Of a stretch of 64,000 nt of DNA, positions 5,239 through 46,963 are shown one piece after another; within the stretch, counting starts at the first letter, position 1; the number at the start of each line of letters is the position of its first letter. The stretch is taken from the NCBI GenBank assembly GCA_025354985.1, contig JANXLU010000042.1, positions 186,001 to 250,000 on the forward strand, read 5' to 3'. The notes under the pieces are model-generated. The model had not been told where the DNA came from. It did not search any database and was given only the letters and a program-made list of their open reading frames with translations. Position numbers and translations under genes: made by a program. Source of the stretch: Chloroflexota bacterium. GTDB taxonomy: Bacteria > Chloroflexota > Anaerolineae > J036 > Brachytrichaceae.

Positions 5239-7668
5239 GTGGAATTGACAGGACTTTCAGATGCGGATGTGCAACAGCGCATATCGCTAAAACAGACCAA
5301 TGCCGTTGTGCACAAAAGCGCGCGGAGCGGTTGGGAAATTATTCGGGAGAACGTATTCACGATTTTCAACGTGATTCTCTTCTCCACCCTGGTTGCCCTC
5401 ATGTTGCTGACCTTTGTGCCGTTGCCAGACGAGGCCGGCGTGCCCCGAATCGCCTCGCCCGGTGTGCGGATGGCGGTCTTTGGGGATGTGCTTTTTACAG
5501 GCATCAGCGTCTTTCTAAATATGGTCATTGGCATGGTCCAGGAATTCCGCGCCAAGCGCGACCTTGACAAACTTGCCAAACAAAACATTCGCAAGGCCCG
5601 TGTGCTGCGCAACGGGGCGCTTTGTGACGTTCCGGTTGACAACATCGTATTGGATGACCTGATCGAATTAACACCCGGCGACCGAATTCCGGCAGACGGC
5701 ACATTGCTCAACGGCGAAGGTATTGAGGTGGACGAGAGCCTGCTTACCGGGGAAAGCGACAATATTCACAAAGTAAAGGGCGAGACTGTGATCAGCGGAA
5801 GCTTTTGTGTGGTCGGTCGTGGATTGATGAAGGCCGAACAGGTGGGGTTGGCCAGCTACGCAAACCAGCTTACGCAGATTGCAGTGCAGTCCAAGGATCA
5901 CTTGACACCGTTGCAGAAGAAGATCAATGTGGTCGTGCAACTGCTGGTTGCCATCATGGTCGTTGTCGCCGTTTTGGAGTTAATTTCGGCATTCAACCGG
6001 CACACACCCGTGTTGGAGGCGCTTCGTTTTACGACCGTCATTGTGGGCAGCTTTGTACCAAGCGGATTGGTACTTGCCATTACGGTGAGCCTGGCCGCCG
6101 GTGCGGTGCGTATCAGCCGCGAAGGAACGCTTGTGCAACGCGTCAGCGCGGTTGAGAGCATGGGTAACGTTACGGTGCTGTGTGTTGACAAAACGGGCAC
6201 GCTCACTCAAAACAAATTAACCGTGACCGAGGTGGTGCCGCTCTGCGGCGCAATGGAGGCAGAAGCCCGGCACATGCTGGCCTTGTATGCGGGGAATGTG
6301 GCGGCGCAAAATGGAACAGCCCGGGCGATTGCAACCTACGCCGGGTCGGCCACCACCGAGCTAAAACTTGGAGAATTGCCATTTAGCTCGGCGCGCAAAA
6401 CCGGCGTCGTCATGATTCAGCAAGGAGCGGGATCGCTGTGCATCGCGCTTGGCGCACCCGAATACGTCATTCCGCCTGGTCACGCTGAGATTCACGCACA
6501 GGTGCGCTTGTTCCAACGACAAGGTTTACGGGTCGTGGCACTGTCGACTCAGCCCGGGCCCATGCTGGAATCATTCGACCCAGCAAGCGGAAAACCAATC
6601 TGCCTGGTGGTCATAGAGGATCAACTGCGACCGGACATTGTGGAAACCATGCGCATGTTTGACCAGGCGGGCGTGCGGGTAAAGATCATCAGCGGTGACA
6701 ATGCCGACACGGTTCAAGCCATCGCCGTCCGGCTTGGCATGCATGCAGACCGGGTGGTGACGCAAACAGAGCTCGCCTCGATGGACACCGCGGCTTTTGC
6801 CGAAGCCGCCCAACAATCCGAGGTATTTGCCCGAATCACCCCGGAGTATAAAAAACTGTTGGTCGCCTCCCTGACGCAGCAGGGCGAATACGTGGCCATG
6901 GTCGGAGACGGCGTTAATGACGTTCCCGCACTCAAGCAAGCGCGCCTTGGTATAGCCATGAATGATGGCGCGCAAATCACCCGGGATGTGGCGGAGCTTG
7001 TCTTGTTAAATAACAATTTGAGCACGCTTCCACACGCACTGTTTGAAGGGCAGGCCATCACCCAGAAAATTCTGGCCAGCGCCAAACTGTATCTTGCAAA
7101 GAATGCCGTCACCATCCTGGCGATTCTGTTTGCCGGGTTTGTAGGCTTGGAGTTTCCTGCTGCGCCGCGATTGGTGAGTTGGATCGTAACCATCTCAGTC
7201 GGCATCCCATGCTTTTTGTTGGCGCTTGGCGTTGTAAAACCAAATCACACGCGGGACGTAGCCCAGGGCGTGCTGTTGTATAGCATCATCGCGGGGGCCG
7301 TTGGGGCTGTGATTCTCGTTGTATCCTACATTATTGCAAACAGTCTTGCGAATGTGGTCGCCGCCCGCACGGTATTCGGTTTGGCTACCCTGCACTTTGC
7401 CATCCACATTTTCTGGGATGTTTTTGGGGTGAGTATTTTTACTCCAGCCAGCATCCGACATCACCCGCGCGAATTTTTTATCGGACTAATTTTGCTTGCG
7501 GTCGGTATCTTTGTGCCCACAACCGCGCCTCGTGGTTTTGGTGCGCAGACGCTAACTTGGCTTGAATTGCTCAATGCGGCGGTATTGCCGCTGATCGGCG
7601 CCTTTGTCTTTAATCGCTTGTTGTATGGCAGCTTTATGCGGAGTGCCATCAGAACACTGCGAACCTAA
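5239..7668 (+). CDS. HAD-type P-type cation ATPase, CtpE-like, with altered M4 ion motif
   Basis: An 809-residue membrane pump. It has the actuator-domain TGES (170-173), the phosphorylation site DKTGTLT with D317, and the hinge GDGVND (556-561), plus paired transmembrane helices near 40-60, 80-105, 235-290 and six at the C-terminus. The N-terminus ('GLSDADVQQRI...NVFTIFNV') and 'VIGMVQEFRAKRDLDKL' match the CtpE subgroup, characterised in mycobacteria as a calcium uptake pump. The M4 motif is VPSGL (S275) where CtpE and SERCA-type pumps have P-E-G-L, so an acidic ion ligand is missing and the substrate cannot be assumed to be calcium. Start is GTG; the 3' end overlaps lysA by 4 bp. Confidence 0.88.
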   Translation: MELTGLSDADVQQRISLKQTNAVVHKSARSGWEIIRENVFTIFNVILFSTLVALMLLTFVPLPDEAGVPRIASPGVRMAVFGDVLFTGISVFLNMVIGMVQEFRAKRDLDKLAKQNIRKARVLRNGALCDVPVDNIVLDDLIELTPGDRIPADGTLLNGEGIEVDESLLTGESDNIHKVKGETVISGSFCVVGRGLMKAEQVGLASYANQLTQIAVQSKDHLTPLQKKINVVVQLLVAIMVVVAVLELISAFNRHTPVLEALRFTTVIVGSFVPSGLVLAITVSLAAGAVRISREGTLVQRVSAVESMGNVTVLCVDKTGTLTQNKLTVTEVVPLCGAMEAEARHMLALYAGNVAAQNGTARAIATYAGSATTELKLGELPFSSARKTGVVMIQQGAGSLCIALGAPEYVIPPGHAEIHAQVRLFQRQGLRVVALSTQPGPMLESFDPASGKPICLVVIEDQLRPDIVETMRMFDQAGVRVKIISGDNADTVQAIAVRLGMHADRVVTQTELASMDTAAFAEAAQQSEVFARITPEYKKLLVASLTQQGEYVAMVGDGVNDVPALKQARLGIAMNDGAQITRDVAELVLLNNNLSTLPHALFEGQAITQKILASAKLYLAKNAVTILAILFAGFVGLEFPAAPRLVSWIVTISVGIPCFLLALGVVKPNHTRDVAQGVLLYSIIAGAVGAVILVVSYIIANSLANVVAARTVFGLATLHFAIHIFWDVFGVSIFTPASIRHHPREFFIGLILLAVGIFVPTTAPRGFGAQTLTWLELLNAAVLPLIGAFVFNRLLYGSFMRSAIRTLRT

Positions 7669-8870
7669 CCAAATTCAAGCGCCCATAAATCTGCAAGAGG
7701 TTCGCGTTTGCGGATCACGCGCCAGTGTGTGCCCTCGGTCATCACTTCGGCCGCACGGGGTCGGGTGTTGTAGTTGGACGACATGGACATGCCGTATGCG
7801 CCCGCGTGTTCAAAGGCCAGTAAATCTCCGCGTTCCAGGCACGGTAGCACGACGTGATGCGCCAACCAGTCACCACTTTCACAAATTGGTCCAACCACGT
7901 CGTAGGAAACCATGGTTCCGGACCAAACGTGATCCCTAATGGCAGAAACCCCGTGAAAAGCCTGATATAGCGTTGGTCGAATAAGGTCATTCATGGCGGC
8001 GTCAACCACTGCATAGTTCGTTCCACCATTTTCTTTCGTAAACAACACGCGCGTTAGCAACCGACCCGCATCCGCCACGATGTAGCGCCCGGGTTCAAAC
8101 TGCACCTGCACGCCTGCAGATTGTGCCATTGGAAGGATCGCAGCGGCAATTTCCTCGATCGGCGCCAGATTGTTGGCATCGCGATAATCCACGCCAAACC
8201 CGCCCCCCATGTCCACGTGGCCAATTGTCATTCCCATCACTTTGCTGGCAGCAACGAACTCAAGCAGCACGGTCATGGTCTGAACATAGGTTGAAACCTC
8301 AAACAATTGGCTCCCAATATGAGCGTGCACGCCATCGATCACCACACCCGGATATTCCGAGCGGGCGGCCACAAGTGCAAGTGCCTGATCTATGGTGATG
8401 CCAAACTTGCTGCTGCCCTTTCCAGTGGCCAGATATTGGTGCGTATGCGGATCTACCGCCGGGTTTATCCGCAACGCAACCCGGGCCGTCTTGTGGCGGG
8501 CCAGCGCCATATCACTGACCACGCGAAGTTCCTGCGCGCTCTCAATATTTAGCCAGGCGACGCCATGGTCCAGGGCGGCCGCGATTTCGTCATCACGTTT
8601 GCCTACACCGGCAAACACAATTTGGCTTGGCTGGGCGCCAGCCGCCAGAACGCGGGCGGCCTCCCCCCAGCTTACAACGTCGAACCCGGCGCCGAGTTTG
8701 TTCAGGAGTTTTAGCACGGCCAGGTTGCCGTTGGCTTTGACCGCGTAATGTAGTGCACCAGCCCCAAGCGCGTTTTCAAGGCGCTTGAAGTTGGCTGCAA
8801 TGCGATCCGCGTCATACACAAAGCAGGGTGTGCCGATTTCAGCCGCAATACTAATAAGCTGCTGGTTCAT
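7665..8870 (-). CDS. lysA: Diaminopimelate decarboxylase
   Basis: PLP enzyme that decarboxylates meso-diaminopimelate to lysine, the last step of lysine synthesis. The 401-residue sequence is a fold-III decarboxylase: PLP lysine K45 in HYAVKAN, HIGSQ (184-188), the glycine-rich phosphate loop GGGFG (222-226), EPGRY (259-263) and CESGD (330-334), where C330 and D334 are the active-site residues contributed across the dimer. The CESGD and length fit DAP rather than ornithine/arginine decarboxylase. ATG start with a TATCAT box 10 nt upstream and no Shine-Dalgarno site. Monocistronic; convergent with the P-type ATPase. Confidence 0.93.
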   Translation of the reverse strand: MNQQLISIAAEIGTPCFVYDADRIAANFKRLENALGAGALHYAVKANGNLAVLKLLNKLGAGFDVVSWGEAARVLAAGAQPSQIVFAGVGKRDDEIAAALDHGVAWLNIESAQELRVVSDMALARHKTARVALRINPAVDPHTHQYLATGKGSSKFGITIDQALALVAARSEYPGVVIDGVHAHIGSQLFEVSTYVQTMTVLLEFVAASKVMGMTIGHVDMGGGFGVDYRDANNLAPIEEIAAAILPMAQSAGVQVQFEPGRYIVADAGRLLTRVLFTKENGGTNYAVVDAAMNDLIRPTLYQAFHGVSAIRDHVWSGTMVSYDVVGPICESGDWLAHHVVLPCLERGDLLAFEHAGAYGMSMSSNYNTRPRAAEVMTEGTHWRVIRKREPLADLWALEFG

Positions 8871-39981: not shown

Positions 39982-40443
39982 TTAGCCCGCGACTGCGAGC
40001 ACCGCCTTCACAATTTTGTCATAGCCCGTGCACCTGCACAGGTTGCCGGCCAGCCAATATCGAACTTCATGTTCGGTTGGGTGAGGATTCTTGTCCAGCA
40101 AGGCCTTGCTCGCCATAATAAACCCGGGCGTGCAGATGCCACACTGCAGCGCGGCATTTTCCAAAAAGGCCTGCTGAATCGGGTGCAACCCGCCGCTCTT
40201 GGGCGCAATCCCCTCAATGGTGGTCACGCTGGCGCCCTCGGTCTCCACAGCCAGCACACAGCAGCTGTTAACGAGCACGCCATTTAGGATGACACTGCAC
40301 GCGCCACAGTTGCCATTGTTGCAGCCTTCCTTTGCACCGGTCAGGCTGAGCGTGTTGCGCAGAACCTCCAACAAGCTTTCATTTGGCTGGCACAAAAACT
40401 CCACTGGTTCGTTGTTAATCGTTGTTGAAACTTGTGTCTTCAT
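39982..40443 (-). CDS. (2Fe-2S) small subunit of the cytoplasmic molybdenum hydroxylase
   Basis: 153 residues with both clusters complete and canonical: C41-C46-C49-C61 (EGCNNGNCGAC) and C101-C104...C136-C138 (CGICTPG, CRCTG). It carries electrons from the molybdenum site to the FAD subunit. It lies between the FAD (54 bp upstream) and molybdenum (59 bp downstream) subunit genes, the medium-small-large order common for such operons. Confidence 0.92.
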   Translation of the reverse strand: MKTQVSTTINNEPVEFLCQPNESLLEVLRNTLSLTGAKEGCNNGNCGACSVILNGVLVNSCCVLAVETEGASVTTIEGIAPKSGGLHPIQQAFLENAALQCGICTPGFIMASKALLDKNPHPTEHEVRYWLAGNLCRCTGYDKIVKAVLAVAG

Positions 40444-40497
40444 GATTTTGTTGTCACGGCCTCCACCGCGCCGGGCGCGGGGTTGCCATCGATGGAT

Positions 40498-41373
40498 TTA
40501 GTTGGCGCGCGAAATCGCACTTTCAAGCGCGCGTTTGGTCATGATTCCGGCCAGGTGTTTGCGCTGGGCCAGTGTGCCACGCATGTCGCTGATCGGTGTC
40601 GCCGCGGTGGATGCCGCCGCCATGGCCGCCGCCACCGCCTTGGCGTCATCAACCGCCGCGCCGATCAGGGCCTTCTCGGCTTCGATCGCGACAATCGGCG
40701 TGGGGCCAACCGCACCAAGAGCCACCCGGGCCTTTACGATTTTGCCGCCCTCAAGGACCACGCTCACACCCGCGCTGGCCACCGCTATATCCATTTCATT
40801 CCGCGGTATAAAGCGCAAATAGGCCGCCCCAAACTTTTGTGCCCCGGTCGCGTTGGCTGGAATGCGAATTTCCACCAGCAGCTCACCGCGCTGCAATGCA
40901 TTGCGCCCCGGGCTCACGCAGAACTTTTCCACCTCAACCTCGCGCCAGCCCGAGGTGCCCGCAATCACGCACACCGCGTTGTGTGCGATGAGAGCCGGGA
41001 TGGTGTCGCCCGCGGGCGACGCCGTGCACAGGTTGCCACCCAGCGATGCCCGTCCCTGGATGGCGGTTCCTCCGACCAGCGAGAACGCATCCATCAATCC
41101 CGGAAAAGCCGCGGCAATCGGGGCATTGCCATAGATCAGGTGCATGGGTGTTGCCGCGCCGATGGTCAGCGCCCCTCCCGGCGCCCAATCCAAACCGGCC
41201 AATCGCGGAATGTTTTTGACGTTCACCACCACCTTGGCGTTCTTTCGTCCTTCGCGCAGCTGCACAATAATATCCGTGCCGCCCGCAAGTGGCTTGGCCA
41301 TATCGCCCTCGCGATACATGACCGCCACCGCCTGTTCAATCGTCGTTGCGTTTACATAGTCAAAGGCTTGCAT
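40498..41373 (-). CDS. FAD-binding medium subunit of the cytoplasmic molybdenum hydroxylase
   Basis: 291 residues. 'PLAGGTDIIV' (28-37) and 'ASLGGNLCTASPAGDT' (109-124) are the two FAD-binding motifs of CoxM/XdhB-type subunits; the C-terminal part is the CO-dehydrogenase flavoprotein C-terminal domain. First gene of the three-gene operon. The ATG at 41373 ('MQAFDYVNA') is the normal start; an open frame runs on to 41502 through the divergent promoter. TATATT lies 6 nt upstream. Confidence 0.9.
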   Translation of the reverse strand: MQAFDYVNATTIEQAVAVMYREGDMAKPLAGGTDIIVQLREGRKNAKVVVNVKNIPRLAGLDWAPGGALTIGAATPMHLIYGNAPIAAAFPGLMDAFSLVGGTAIQGRASLGGNLCTASPAGDTIPALIAHNAVCVIAGTSGWREVEVEKFCVSPGRNALQRGELLVEIRIPANATGAQKFGAAYLRFIPRNEMDIAVASAGVSVVLEGGKIVKARVALGAVGPTPIVAIEAEKALIGAAVDDAKAVAAAMAAASTAATPISDMRGTLAQRKHLAGIMTKRALESAISRAN

Positions 41374-41485
41374 GAAGGCAATATACATCCGATTCGCGGA
41401 TTTGGTTAAGTCCGCTTTAGCCGCGCTCAACCTTAAAAACTTGCCATTTTTGATCTTCCGGTGTATGGTGGCAGTTGAAATCACT

Positions 41486-42403
41486 ATGACAACGATACAC
41501 AAATCACATACTCTGACCCCTCACAAGCTTGCTCGCCACATTTATTCGGGCATCACCGCCGATGGTTCAAACATCGGGTGCGTGGTCAGCGATGACGGGG
41601 CCATCTGCATTGACCTGCCGCATACCGCCGCCGAAACCCTGGCATGGCGTTCGGAACTTGCACTGCTCACGCTAAAACCCATCAAGAGCGTGATCTTTAC
41701 CTCACCGGATCGGTTCTCAAGCGAGGCACTGGGCGCGCTGGCCACCGGGAAGCTACGCATGCCAACGCTGCTGCAGGATGCCGGTCATCACACGTTGCTG
41801 TCCGCGCTGGAAGCGTCGTATCCGCATCCAACCGAGCTCGGCCTGCCATTTCACGTGCGCGAACAAGCCGGTCTGCCCGAGATCACCTTCTCGGATCACG
41901 CCACCGTGACGCTGGGTGGTTCGGTGGACCCCATCTATGTGGACGTCACCCACGTCGGTGGCTGTGCCCCTGGCGCCTCCTATGTCACCGTGCGCGATTC
42001 TGGAATCCTGTTTGTTGGCGACCACATCGCGGTGGGTGAAGCCCCGCTGTTTAGCGCGGGCGACCTCGACAAGTGGATCAAGGCGCTGACCGGTTTGGCG
42101 CGCTTCAAAAATATAAAGACCGTGGTGCCAGGTCGCGGCGCCATTACAAACGCCAGCGCAGGTGAGGCCATGGTCGAGTTTGTCAAATCGCTCAAATCGG
42201 CGATGACCAAGTTCAACAGGCGGGATCACGCGCGCGAGGATTTGGCCGCATTGGTGCCCGAGCTGGCCGCCCAGTTTGAACCCAAGCGGCGCACCCGCGG
42301 CGACTTGCACGGCGCGGAAGACATCAACACCTCGCGCATTCGCACCGGGCTTGAGGCAATTTTCGACGCCCAGCGCAAGGAAACCCAAGCCATCATCGTC
42401 TAG
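41486..42403 (+). CDS. Metallo-beta-lactamase-fold protein lacking the metal-binding motif
   Basis: 305 residues with the outline of an MBL-fold hydrolase: 'SNIGCVVSDDGAICIDLPH', a strand ending where TH-x-H-x-DH should be, 'ILFVGDHIAVGEAP' and 'IKTVVPGRGA' in place of VPGHG. The first site reads TSPDRFSSEA, so its histidines are missing, and the PGHG histidine is arginine; only the GD aspartate remains. The fold is therefore probably kept without a di-metal centre, and hydrolase activity should not be assumed. It diverges from the molybdenum hydroxylase operon (112 bp). ATG 41465 is an alternative start. Confidence 0.7.
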   Translation: MTTIHKSHTLTPHKLARHIYSGITADGSNIGCVVSDDGAICIDLPHTAAETLAWRSELALLTLKPIKSVIFTSPDRFSSEALGALATGKLRMPTLLQDAGHHTLLSALEASYPHPTELGLPFHVREQAGLPEITFSDHATVTLGGSVDPIYVDVTHVGGCAPGASYVTVRDSGILFVGDHIAVGEAPLFSAGDLDKWIKALTGLARFKNIKTVVPGRGAITNASAGEAMVEFVKSLKSAMTKFNRRDHAREDLAALVPELAAQFEPKRRTRGDLHGAEDINTSRIRTGLEAIFDAQRKETQAIIV

Positions 42404-43395: not shown

Positions 43396-44232
43396 TCATT
43401 GCTCCAACCTAAACAACACGCGCACATACTTCACGTGCTTCTTAAAGGCCGCCGGGTCCACGCGTTCGGCATAGTGATCTATCAGTGCGTCCATGGGCTT
43501 GCGAAATACACGCGCCACAACACCCTTGACCAGGCGTGACGCAAAGCCACCCGTTGAGCTCACATACCGCGTAAACACATCCACACCCGGAACCACATGC
43601 TCCTTCAATACGCGCTGGGCAAACTCCAGAGTTGGCAGCACGTTGTCGGTGATGTCCACCTGGCTGACAACAGTCAACCCGGCGGCGGCCGCCTTCGCCA
43701 AATAATCCGCCTCCACATTCACTACGCTGGCAAAGGCCCGCTCGCTTGAGACCCGCAACATCCCGCTGATAAACAAGTAGCCACCCGGACGCAGCAATCG
43801 GCGCACCTGGGCAAAGCCTACCGTCGCGTCAAAATAATTCTGGCTCTCGCTCATCAAAATCAGATCAAACGGCCCCGCCAGCGTCAGCGCTTCAAATTTA
43901 CTGCGCACAAAGCGCACACCCTCGTGCGGGTGCGCTGCAAAGTACGTCTCATGATTGGCATCCGGCGAGACCGCGGTAACCACGTAGCCGTGATCGGCCA
44001 TGGCCCGGGCGTTGTCACCGATCCCAGACCCTACATCCAGCACGGTTGTCACCTCCGCCGGGAATGAGGTCAGCAGCGTTTCGGTATAACGGGTTTGGGC
44101 TGCCCGGGCGCGGGCCATATCCAACTTTTCCGGCGTGTCCGAATAGCCGTAGTGCAGCGACCCAAGCTTTAGGACGTTGGTGCAAAACAGAAGTTCAAGA
44201 TCCAAGTTTGACTGGTAGACGCGATCAATCAT
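43396..44232 (-). CDS. SAM-dependent methyltransferase, small-molecule type
   Basis: 278 residues. SAM motif I is 'VLDVGSGIGDNA' (about 64-75); motif II region 'FDLILMSESQNYFD' and motif III 'RRLLRPGGYLFISG' follow. The N-terminal ~50 residues ('YQSNLDLELLFCTNVLKLGSLHYGY') resemble lid helices of methyltransferases acting on lipids or sterol-like compounds, so a hydrophobic substrate is conceivable. It is the last gene of a three-gene run, overlapping the previous gene by 4 bp (ATGA). Confidence 0.8.
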   Translation of the reverse strand: MIDRVYQSNLDLELLFCTNVLKLGSLHYGYSDTPEKLDMARARAAQTRYTETLLTSFPAEVTTVLDVGSGIGDNARAMADHGYVVTAVSPDANHETYFAAHPHEGVRFVRSKFEALTLAGPFDLILMSESQNYFDATVGFAQVRRLLRPGGYLFISGMLRVSSERAFASVVNVEADYLAKAAAAGLTVVSQVDITDNVLPTLEFAQRVLKEHVVPGVDVFTRYVSSTGGFASRLVKGVVARVFRKPMDALIDHYAERVDPAAFKKHVKYVRVLFRLEQ

Positions 44233-44966
44233 GTTTTAAGCACGGATTCAAGGTCATTGCCGGCCCGGCTCGGCCATCTGTGCCGTTGGGGGATGCCGTG
44301 TTCATCCACCCACAGCTCGCCCGGCGTATTGTAGTTGTCGCCTGTGTACTTATCGATCTCGCGTGTATAGCGGAAGCGCAGCCCATCCCGCTCAGGCCCA
44401 CCCGGCGCCGCCGGTGGAAGCGTCACAACCTCGACCAGATTGCTGCGCCAGCCTTCAACCCGTGGGCGGAGCAATTGCTCGCCATCACCCGAGACTTCCA
44501 AGGATGGCACAACCACCAACTGCGGCCCGGCCGCCGGCCCGGTCATCAGTGGTCGCATCAGCGCACCCAGCGATATCTGCATCAACGGCCACACCAGCAG
44601 CCCCGCCGGGCGCGCGTGATCCTCGTATTCAGGCGCCCGATCCGCGCGCACGCGCTCGACAAACACCGAGTCCGGCGTGATCAAATAGCTGGCCCGACAG
44701 CGGCTTATCGCGCCCTCGTGGCTGCCAGACCAGTCGAACAGTATTTGCCAGTTTGAGCTCCCGGCTTCATTGGCGCGCTCCACCGCCTCCACCAACAATG
44801 TGCTGCCGTCGGCGGCGTTTGCCAGCTCTGCGCGGGTGATCCGCAGGCCGTCACCGCGGTGATGGATGATCCATTCTTCCGTGCCACCCACACCCCCACG
44901 GACGTCAACAAAGACACCCGTGGCAACCAGCGTCTCGCGTTCGCCTGGCGGCGTAATAAACCGCAT
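44229..44966 (-). CDS. Uncharacterised 245-aa protein between amidohydrolase-CYTH and methyltransferase
   Basis: I do not recognise the family. The sequence is beta-rich with regular alternation ('LRITRAELANAADGSTLLVEAVERAN', 'YLITPDSVFVERVRA') and a hydrophobic stretch near 122-143 that is too short to be a clear membrane helix. The repeated short strands and 'GLRFRYTREIDKY' ending suggest an antiparallel barrel of a lipocalin-like or glycolipid-binding kind, but this is only a guess. It shares one base with the upstream fusion gene's stop codon and 4 bp with the downstream methyltransferase, so all three are translationally coupled. Confidence 0.7.
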   Translation of the reverse strand: MRFITPPGERETLVATGVFVDVRGGVGGTEEWIIHHRGDGLRITRAELANAADGSTLLVEAVERANEAGSSNWQILFDWSGSHEGAISRCRASYLITPDSVFVERVRADRAPEYEDHARPAGLLVWPLMQISLGALMRPLMTGPAAGPQLVVVPSLEVSGDGEQLLRPRVEGWRSNLVEVVTLPPAAPGGPERDGLRFRYTREIDKYTGDNYNTPGELWVDEHGIPQRHRWPSRAGNDLESVLKT

Positions 44967-46963
44967 CAGGTTGCGATCTCGACGTATTCCTGACGCAGTA
45001 ATTGCGCGTCGGTGATGCCAAAGCGCATCAGCAGATCGCCTATGGTGGCGGCCTTGCGCTGGGCGTCCTTCAAGCTCCAGGTGCGCGTCTTGATCTCAAG
45101 GAACATGTCATTACCTGTGGCGGACGGCTCAACCAGGCGATCAATGTTGATAAAGATTTCCTGATCTTCAAATGCCACCTCCCAGCGCAGACGATCCTTC
45201 TCAATAGAAACCTCGCGGGTGGGCTTGAAGTATTCGCGATAGAAGCGCAGGCTGCGGTCCGCCGACGAGAAGAACCGCACCCGTGACAGCAGCACCGAGT
45301 GGTCATATTCGCGCTCGCCGGTGGCCCCGACCAGGGTCAGCCGAGAGCGGCTCCCCAGCACGCCGCCGTTCTCATCCAGGCGCTCGTCTTCGCGGTAGCG
45401 CAGCCGCGAGGGATCATTATCAAAATAGAAGTACGTGTCATATTGGCGGTAGTGCACATGCCGCAGCACCTTCAACCCGTTGGTTTGATTCTGGACCGAG
45501 GCAATAATCGCGGTCGCGTCGCTCAACCGGGCCTTCACCTGCACCTCAAAGCTCTCGCTCTGGGTGACGCCGCCAATCGCGGCCAGCTTTCGCAACACAT
45601 CACCCTCGCGCTCAACCAGGAATTGATCAATCTGGCGGGCGGTCTCATTCGCCTGCGCACGAATGCCGGTCTCATCCAACGTCAAAAGTGCGCGCGCGCG
45701 CATCACTGGTCGACCCTGGATAAATACATCCCGCACATCTCCGGCCTTGCCCGAATACACAATCTGGGTATACAGCGCTTCCGGATCGCGGGCCAGCTTC
45801 CAATAGGCCGGCGTGTTGTGTAAGGTGTCCAGATTCACCACGATTACATCTCCGGCTTTGCCGGGTTCAAGTGAACCCGTCTTGTCGCCAATATGCAGCG
45901 CCCGGGCGCCCTCGATGGTGGCCATGCGCATGGCCTGCCGCGCGGGCACCGCCACCGGGTTCCGGGTGCTGCCCTTGGCCAGCAACGCCGCCAGGCGCAT
46001 CTCCTCAAAGTGATCCAAATCGTTGTTGCTGGCGGGGCCATCCGTGCCGATGCCTACGGTCACGCCCTCATCCAGCATATCGGTGAGCGCGGCGATTCCG
46101 CTGGCCAGCTTCAGATTGGCGGCCGGGTTGTGCGAAATGGTGGCGCCGTGCTTCTTGAGCATGCGCATCTCGTCCCGGTCAATCCACACACAGTGCGCGG
46201 CGATGACCTTGGCCTCCAGCACGCCCCATTTGTGAATCCAATTTACCGACGGCATGTTGTTGATGCGTTTGCAATCGATCACCTCCTGCTCGGTCTCGGA
46301 GATATGTATGTGCAACGGCACATCATGCTTGATCGCGATCTCGGCGCACGCGCGCATCAATTGACCGCTGCACGTGTAGGGTGCGTGTGGCGCCACCACC
46401 GGCACGATCAGCTCGTGATCCTTCCACTTGGTCACAAACGCCTCGCACGCCTCCAGGCTCTCGTCCGCGCTGGCCGCGTCGGGCGTGGGGAACTGCATGA
46501 TGGTCTGACTGCACAGCGCGCGCATCCCGGCGTCGGCCAGCGTTTGAGCGATCGTGTCTTCAAAGTAATACATGTCGTTGACGCACGTCACGCCGCTGCG
46601 GATCATCTCGGCGGCCGCCAGCTGGGCGCCCAGCTTGACAAACGCCGGCGACACAAATTTCTTCTCAACCGGTAGCATGTAGCCATACAGCCAAACGTCC
46701 AGACGCAGGTCATCCGCCAGACCCCTCAACAGCGTCATGGGCACGTGCGTATGGCAATTGACCAGACCGGGCATGATCGCGCAGTCTGTGCAGTCAATCA
46801 CCTCGGTTGCCGTAAATTCCCGCAACACCTCCGCCGCCGGACCTACGGCCACAATTTTGCCCGCGCGCAGCGCCACGGCCCCATCCGCCACCAGGCGGTT
46901 CGCGTCATCCATCGTGGCCACCACCCCGTGGGCCAGAATGACATCGCATTTATTGTTTTCCAT
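44966..46963 (-). CDS. Fusion of an MTA/SAH-deaminase-type amidohydrolase with a C-terminal CYTH (triphosphate-tunnel) domain
   Basis: 665 residues. Residues 1-440 are a complete amidohydrolase of the MtaD/SsnA group: H71-x-H73, H193, HIHISETEQE (H218, H220, E223), H257 and D308, all the metal and catalytic residues, so deamination of 5'-methylthioadenosine/S-adenosylhomocysteine or a similar adenosine analogue is likely. Residues about 470-665 look like CYTH: EVQVKARL (second residue of the ExExK motif is Q), QYDTYF, 'SRLRYREDERL', a basic strand, and 'FINIDRL...FLEIK'. CYTH proteins cleave or cyclise triphosphates. ATG start; TAGTAT 9 nt upstream. Heads an overlapping operon with an unknown protein and a methyltransferase. 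Confidence 0.85.
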   Translation of the reverse strand: MENNKCDVILAHGVVATMDDANRLVADGAVALRAGKIVAVGPAAEVLREFTATEVIDCTDCAIMPGLVNCHTHVPMTLLRGLADDLRLDVWLYGYMLPVEKKFVSPAFVKLGAQLAAAEMIRSGVTCVNDMYYFEDTIAQTLADAGMRALCSQTIMQFPTPDAASADESLEACEAFVTKWKDHELIVPVVAPHAPYTCSGQLMRACAEIAIKHDVPLHIHISETEQEVIDCKRINNMPSVNWIHKWGVLEAKVIAAHCVWIDRDEMRMLKKHGATISHNPAANLKLASGIAALTDMLDEGVTVGIGTDGPASNNDLDHFEEMRLAALLAKGSTRNPVAVPARQAMRMATIEGARALHIGDKTGSLEPGKAGDVIVVNLDTLHNTPAYWKLARDPEALYTQIVYSGKAGDVRDVFIQGRPVMRARALLTLDETGIRAQANETARQIDQFLVEREGDVLRKLAAIGGVTQSESFEVQVKARLSDATAIIASVQNQTNGLKVLRHVHYRQYDTYFYFDNDPSRLRYREDERLDENGGVLGSRSRLTLVGATGEREYDHSVLLSRVRFFSSADRSLRFYREYFKPTREVSIEKDRLRWEVAFEDQEIFINIDRLVEPSATGNDMFLEIKTRTWSLKDAQRKAATIGDLLMRFGITDAQLLRQEYVEIAT

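Follow-up and report, generated by a model that had tools for sequence, protein, structure and literature searches.

A 665-residue protein encoded in the analysed window, a stretch of 64,000 nucleotides from a Chloroflexota genome, joins an adenine-nucleoside deaminase of the MtaD type to a CYTH (triphosphate tunnel) domain within a single complete gene (44966..46963, minus strand). The protein is best explained as a single-origin, vertically kept Chloroflexota enzyme in which an active deaminase would carry an attached tunnel for a polyphosphate ligand, binding this ligand without cutting it and so tuning or placing the deaminase. This reading is held with about even confidence.

The open reading frame begins with ATG and comprises 665 codons with no internal stops, and full-length homologues support its extent. 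The initial annotation had given its coordinates and quoted the motifs EVQVK, QYDTYF, LRYRED, and EIK, all of them exactly, and the deaminase and CYTH architecture that it described is borne out by Pfam and by the predicted folds. All features of the gene lie on the minus strand. The metal-dependent deaminase domain, an amidohydrolase, covers residues 5-445 (45629..46951), as supported by VIA and by a Pfam Amidohydro_1 match at residues 63-420 with an E-value of 7.7e-73. Both domains are joined by a helical linker at residues 446-470 (45554..45628), where the model has helices at 431-453 and 456-464 and where F448, E453, and K459 are invariant in the alignment. The CYTH domain follows at residues 471-665 (44969..45553), its extent being also given as 471-640. 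The search with PF01928 proposed for this part returned a match at residues 473-638, which scores 23.3 bits in the full protein, above the cut-off of 23.2, and 27.4 bits, clearly above it, when the C domain is isolated. PF01928 is also matched by 16 of 28 homologous C domains (best E-value 4.5e-9), and other fusions that exceed the cut-off include those of G206, G427, G053, and G092.

The whole fusion protein is modeled by AlphaFold with a mean pLDDT of 92 and a pTM of 0.86 (46 homologues). In VIA comparisons, the predicted N-terminal half superimposes on 4dzh with a Z of 57.0 (rmsd 1.3, 438 residues), on 4f0s with a Z of 56.1, and on 4gbd with a Z of 55.9; some of the matched MtaD structures hold inosine or methylthio-coformycin. 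For the C domain, a search of PDB sequences with its profile gave nothing up to an E-value of 10, so fold prediction was needed, and a hand-made consensus of the domain gave a chance match only. Modeled in isolation, the domain reaches a pLDDT of 93.7 and matches the class IV cyclase 3n0z in Foldseek with an E-value of 6.5e-8. Its best-matching structures in VIA comprise 2een (Z 19.1, rmsd 2.0 over 166 residues), 3n0z (Z 17.7), the archaeal SaTTM 7ns9 (Z 17.2), and the plant TTM1 7z67 (Z 15.9), and Mediator subunits match with Z values of 10-15. The C-terminal domain is thus predicted to be an eight-stranded CYTH tunnel, as had been claimed from the sequence, and not some other fold.

Profile-profile alignment with hhalign places the C domain of the fusions on 21 canonical Chloroflexota CYTH proteins (E-value 1.2e-7), with EVQVK corresponding to EIELK, LRYRE to LRLRQ, TLV to TLK, and EIK to the canonical ExE. 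Conservation was read from an alignment of 90 fusion proteins and from a second comparison of 36 sequences, composed of 13 distant ones from other Chloroflexota families and 23 others. In the former, E473, Q475, K477, D509, R522, and R524 are invariant, and K589, R591, R593, D608, E623, and K625 are present in every ungapped row; the same tunnel residues are kept in both subgroups of the latter. On strand 1, the ExExK motif of catalytic TTM proteins is replaced by ExQxK (E473-V-Q475-V-K477, 45533..45547) in 90/90 rows and in both subgroups. On strand 8, ExE is replaced by ExK (E623-I-K625, 45089..45097) in 89 rows, the remaining one having a gap, and again in both subgroups. The change of one acidic residue in each motif, noticed by the initial annotation in a single protein, is therefore a property of the whole family. 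A third catalytic residue is lost besides these two glutamates, namely the lysine of TLK (T543-L-V545, 45329..45337): position 545 is Lys in canonical CYTH proteins, V, T, I, or L in the 90 rows, and T, I, V, M, or L in the 36 sequences. The residues that are kept include the DxY motif (D509-T-Y511, 45431..45439; D509 in 90/90 and Y511 in 89/90), the putative phosphate-binding arginines of R520-L-R522-Y-R524 (45392..45406; R522 and R524 in 90/90), and the basic tunnel residues K589-D-R591-L-R593 (45185..45199; 89 rows, a gap in the other, and both subgroups).

In SaTTM, according to the accessible text of the CYTH survey (PMC8233210), which also covers the role of the DxY motif, two metals are coordinated by E5, E7, and E137 together with PPPi. 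There, E135 is central for metal 1, and hydrolysis depends on E137, the second Glu of ExE, as the ligand of metal 2. Mapped onto this protein, the fusion family keeps the metal-1 glutamates, most of the phosphate-binding basic residues, and DxY.

With strand positions assigned as tunnel-facing or outward by the parity that the canonical motifs set, 17 of 42 tunnel-facing positions are invariant, mostly charged ones, versus only 2 of 45 outward positions, and the mean entropy is 1.17 versus 1.59 (permutation p 0.027). Conservation is thus concentrated inside the tunnel, which indicates selection on it rather than decay, and this pattern argues for a working binding tunnel.

The published motif rules place this tunnel in none of three known classes: by its residues, it does not appear to be a class IV cyclase, a thiamine triphosphatase, or a standard triphosphatase. 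Class IV adenylyl cyclases (CyaB) are described in the accessible part of the survey as carrying HFxxxxExExK, a small residue instead of the first Arg of RxR, and Ala instead of the second Glu of ExE (PMC8233210). Throughout the 90 rows, HFxxxxExExK is absent, with no HF preceding E473, R522 is invariant, and K625 stands where cyclases have Ala. The link to cyclic-nucleotide chemistry that had been suggested for the fusion loses its support on the first two of these grounds, the missing motif and the retained arginine. The W/YxRxR pattern of thiamine triphosphatases is not found either, position 520 being Arg in 84 of the 90 rows and Trp in 3.

The mechanism that we propose starts from an N-terminal barrel which would hydrolytically deaminate an adenine-containing nucleoside with the help of one divalent metal. 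The CYTH tunnel, in turn, would bind a ligand that resembles triphosphate or carries another polyphosphate group, with K477, R522, R524, K589, and R591 as its contacts, together with a single metal site formed by E473 and E623. This ligand would escape hydrolysis for want of the second metal site, the one that activates water, whose glutamates are replaced by Q475 and K625, and, once bound, it would tune or position the deaminase. The substitution of the catalytic residues, together with the invariance of the other phosphate-binding residues, favors a ligand-binding, non-hydrolysing tunnel, and it lends support to the earlier suggestion that the CYTH part binds rather than catalyses. The combination of kept binding residues and a lost second metal site suggests a phosphate sensor built into the enzyme. 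A broader claim, that the fusions form a Chloroflexota-wide class of nucleoside deaminases under the control of an integral sensor for triphosphate or polyphosphate, derived from a CYTH tunnel whose metal site 2 has turned into Gln and Lys, is made more tentatively, at clearly less than even confidence.

The main rival to this mechanism is a tunnel with altered rather than abolished catalysis. The protein would then be bifunctional, with a tunnel still acting as a phosphohydrolase on, for instance, pyrophosphate or a nucleotide, K625 replacing metal 2, and both activities serving one pathway. The number of invariant, mostly charged tunnel-facing positions is higher than plain binding might need, which fits this idea. 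The plant kinase-CYTH fusions TTM1 and TTM2 (the 7z67 match above) lack ExExK and ExE and are yet reported to act on pyrophosphate in the accessible survey text (PMC8233210), so that motif loss is no proof of inactivity. However, the metal-2 Glu that both TTM and ThTPase catalysis need is Lys in every ungapped row of the fusion alignment, the second Glu of ExExK is Gln in every row, and many of the genomes that bear the fusion encode, in addition, canonical CYTH proteins able to hydrolyse. Altered catalysis is therefore considered unlikely, although it stands ahead of the other alternatives. Next comes a purely structural role, also unlikely, in which the tunnel domain would stabilize a deaminase oligomer or cover a neighboring active site with no small-molecule ligand involved. 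Non-catalytic CYTH-like folds do occur in other complexes, as in the Mediator subunits retrieved by the structural comparison, and the linker of the fusion is helical and well predicted, but conservation falls on the mostly charged, tunnel-facing residues and not on the outer surface.

Turning to the deaminase half, the initial annotation had recognized every catalytic residue of MtaD/SsnA-type enzymes in this part, and they are indeed conserved throughout: the metal ligands H71, H73, H220, H257, and D308, and the catalytic E223. The first metal-binding pair, H71-T-H73 (46745..46753), is found in 88 of the 90 rows, the other two having gaps, and in all groups of the second comparison. The stretch from H220 to D308 (46040..46306) contains H220, E223, H257, and D308, which are invariant in both alignments. 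The invariance of every metal ligand and catalytic residue leads us to expect an active deaminase half. Its substrate would be some adenine-containing nucleoside.

Curated models do not assign this half to a named activity. The NCBIfam model for MTA/SAH deaminase (NF012037) reaches 292.7 of 779 bits and that for 5'-deoxyadenosine deaminase (NF005557) 348 of 522 bits, both well below cut-off, and the other curated NCBIfam deaminase models likewise fall short. At several positions, the fusion clade departs from the MtaD structures, with D89 (Met in those structures), E135 (Asn/Ala/Pro), P161, and D162 (Tyr/Trp), and with mostly K or R at position 157, where the window protein has Gln and the MtaD structures have Glu or Asp. 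Judging from neighboring motifs, positions 89, 135, 157, 161, and 162 probably line the 5' pocket.

Several routes that could have called for such a deaminase are already served in the genomes that encode it. All 28 fusion-bearing genomes examined encode an SAH hydrolase marked by HxTxE as adenosine-type, and the HxExK motif expected of an SIH hydrolase (PMC10978960) occurs in none of them. An obligatory pathway from SAH to SIH is thereby rejected for these genomes. A deaminase that makes S-inosylhomocysteine for an SIH-specific hydrolase, as in Methanocaldococcus, is accordingly improbable, even though the N domain has its relatives among the deaminases of MTA/SAH and of 5'-deoxyadenosine and its fusion-specific pocket holds extra charged residues (D89, E135, K/R/Q157, and D162). 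Adenosine deaminase (PF00962) occurs in 31 of 44 fusion-bearing genomes, so that the fusion could at best be a partial substitute for it, and this role was rejected. A route from MTA to methylthioinosine was rejected too, as MTA phosphorylase is found in 41 of the 44 fusion-bearing genomes searched and all 23 of the phosphorylases read carry TDYD, which we take to be the adenine-type motif of this enzyme. Given these three activities in the genomes concerned, the fusion fills no obvious gap. As a separate observation, eight Chloroflexota genomes (G064, G184, G201, G216, G285, G350, G353, and G376) have a full-scoring type of SAH hydrolase, with HxTxQ in the four read, and none of the eight is fusion-bearing; most other Chloroflexota have a lower-scoring HxTxE type.

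The genetic neighborhood is too little conserved to name a pathway, and no constant operon was found among 114 fusion loci. In the window, the fusion gene is followed on the same strand by a 245-codon open reading frame (44229-44966, minus) and this, in turn, by a SAM-dependent methyltransferase gene (43396-44232, minus), each with ends overlapping those of the gene before it. The 245-residue protein has no Pfam or NCBIfam match and only weak relatives (31% identity), present in two of three genomes of the same genus. An operon logic involving these three genes was discarded because the arrangement is not conserved elsewhere. The commonest nucleoside gene nearby, named by eye as are those that follow in this sentence, encodes a pyrimidine-nucleoside phosphorylase and lies upstream on the opposite strand in 22 of the 114 loci, and genes for an M14 peptidase and CinA adjoin the fusion in other loci. 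At one locus (L149, genome G042), a gene for MTA phosphorylase is the direct convergent neighbor of the fusion gene (5568-6437 and 6696-8696, respectively). In eight loci, including L146, a CoaE-like dephospho-CoA kinase gene (by eye) lies directly downstream on the same strand. Open reading frames resembling the [2Fe-2S] and FAD subunits of a xanthine dehydrogenase-type enzyme (by eye) are found in the window at 39982-41502 (minus), about 3.5 kb from the fusion.

A sequencing or assembly error that fused two separate genes has nothing in its favor and next to no credence. The full-length fusion, extending at least to residue 651, is encoded by 43 of 60 relatives taken from independent assemblies (2 more being cut by contig ends), and the complete genome of Pelolinea submarina (L105, NZ_AP018437) has it as well. 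This recurrence excludes chance and assembly error as the source of the fusion, and relatives carry the fusion rather than two separate genes.

When the C domain alone was used as query against 84,980 species genomes, 428 relatives were obtained, and all 80 loci kept, the best 80 of the 428, carry the fusion. Of 400 Chloroflexota genomes searched with a profile of just the tunnel, 89 contain the C domain. Two of the matches fall in short frames that run up to the end of a contig, and all the remaining ones in open frames that could accommodate the whole fusion. No free-standing C-domain gene was seen in these 400 genomes or among those best 80 relatives, and plasmid records gave no match. In a maximum-likelihood tree of the deaminase half, all 36 fusions and one row cut by a contig end form one clade with 99/99 support, outside which fall the stand-alone Chloroflexota deaminases and three MtaD sequences from the PDB. 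The joining therefore probably happened once, before the sampled lineages split, and no fission was seen among these. One of the best 80 loci (L091) lies on an 8-kb contig titled Calditrichia and nests among Anaerolineae in the tree; the contig is probably misbinned, or possibly reflects gene transfer. Two stand-alone MtaD-like deaminases (L253 in G050 and L254 in G054) are 41-44% identical to the N domain of the fusion, and one of these two genomes has the fusion too.

Both halves belong to known families, and what is new, within the accessible evidence, is their combination and the family-wide ExQxK/ExK tunnel. The accessible text of the CYTH survey makes no mention of an amidohydrolase partner (PMC8233210), and no relevant paper on a deaminase-CYTH fusion was found in the accessible full-text literature. 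A link between nucleotide and phosphate metabolism has long been suspected for CYTH proteins, whose cellular roles are mostly unknown according to that same text (PMC8233210). In the present lineage, a tunnel that lacks the residues of metal site 2 has become permanently attached to a nucleoside deaminase and has been retained through much of a phylum, and with both in one protein this link becomes directly testable. If the sensor reading is true, the fusion would be a bacterial case of a tunnel fold turned from enzyme into receptor. It also carries a warning for annotation, as such genes can be named hydrolase or adenylate cyclase from half the protein.

Among known systems, the closest to the N-terminal half are the MtaD-type deaminases of Chromobacterium violaceum (4f0r/4f0s), Xanthomonas campestris (4dzh), Pseudomonas aeruginosa (4gbd), and Thermotoga maritima (TM0936, 1p1m), which have the same fold, metal residues, and catalytic residues and are 32-40% identical to it over about 400-438 residues. 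These enzymes end near residue 440, whereas the fusion continues into the CYTH domain; the fusion clade is separate from the MtaD structures in the tree and differs from three of them at pocket positions 89, 135, 157, 161, and 162. The archaeal CYTH proteins SaTTM (Saci_0718) and PH1819 share the tunnel fold (Z 17.2 and 19.1). Equivalents of SaTTM E5, K9, R56, R58, K110, R112, E135, and DxY are kept in the fusion, in which, contrary to SaTTM, E7 is replaced by Gln, E137 by Lys, and K69 by uncharged residues throughout, and a deaminase is attached. Plant TTM1 and TTM2 are alike in that their CYTH domain lacks the standard ExExK and ExE motifs and is joined to another enzyme, but their partner is a P-loop kinase, they occur in plants and Amoebozoa, and they carry W/YxRxR instead of RxRxR, as far as the accessible survey text describes them (PMC8233210). 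Documented partners of CYTH domains in that text include HD hydrolase, exopolyphosphatase, nucleotidyl kinase, CHAD, and phosphoribulokinase-type domains (PMC8233210). In YgiF (CYTH-CHAD) and other such fusions, CYTH serves as a module of a multidomain protein, as it does in the deaminase fusion, and the tunnel of YgiF hydrolyses PPPi (PMC3440374), unlike what is proposed here for the tunnel of the Chloroflexota protein.
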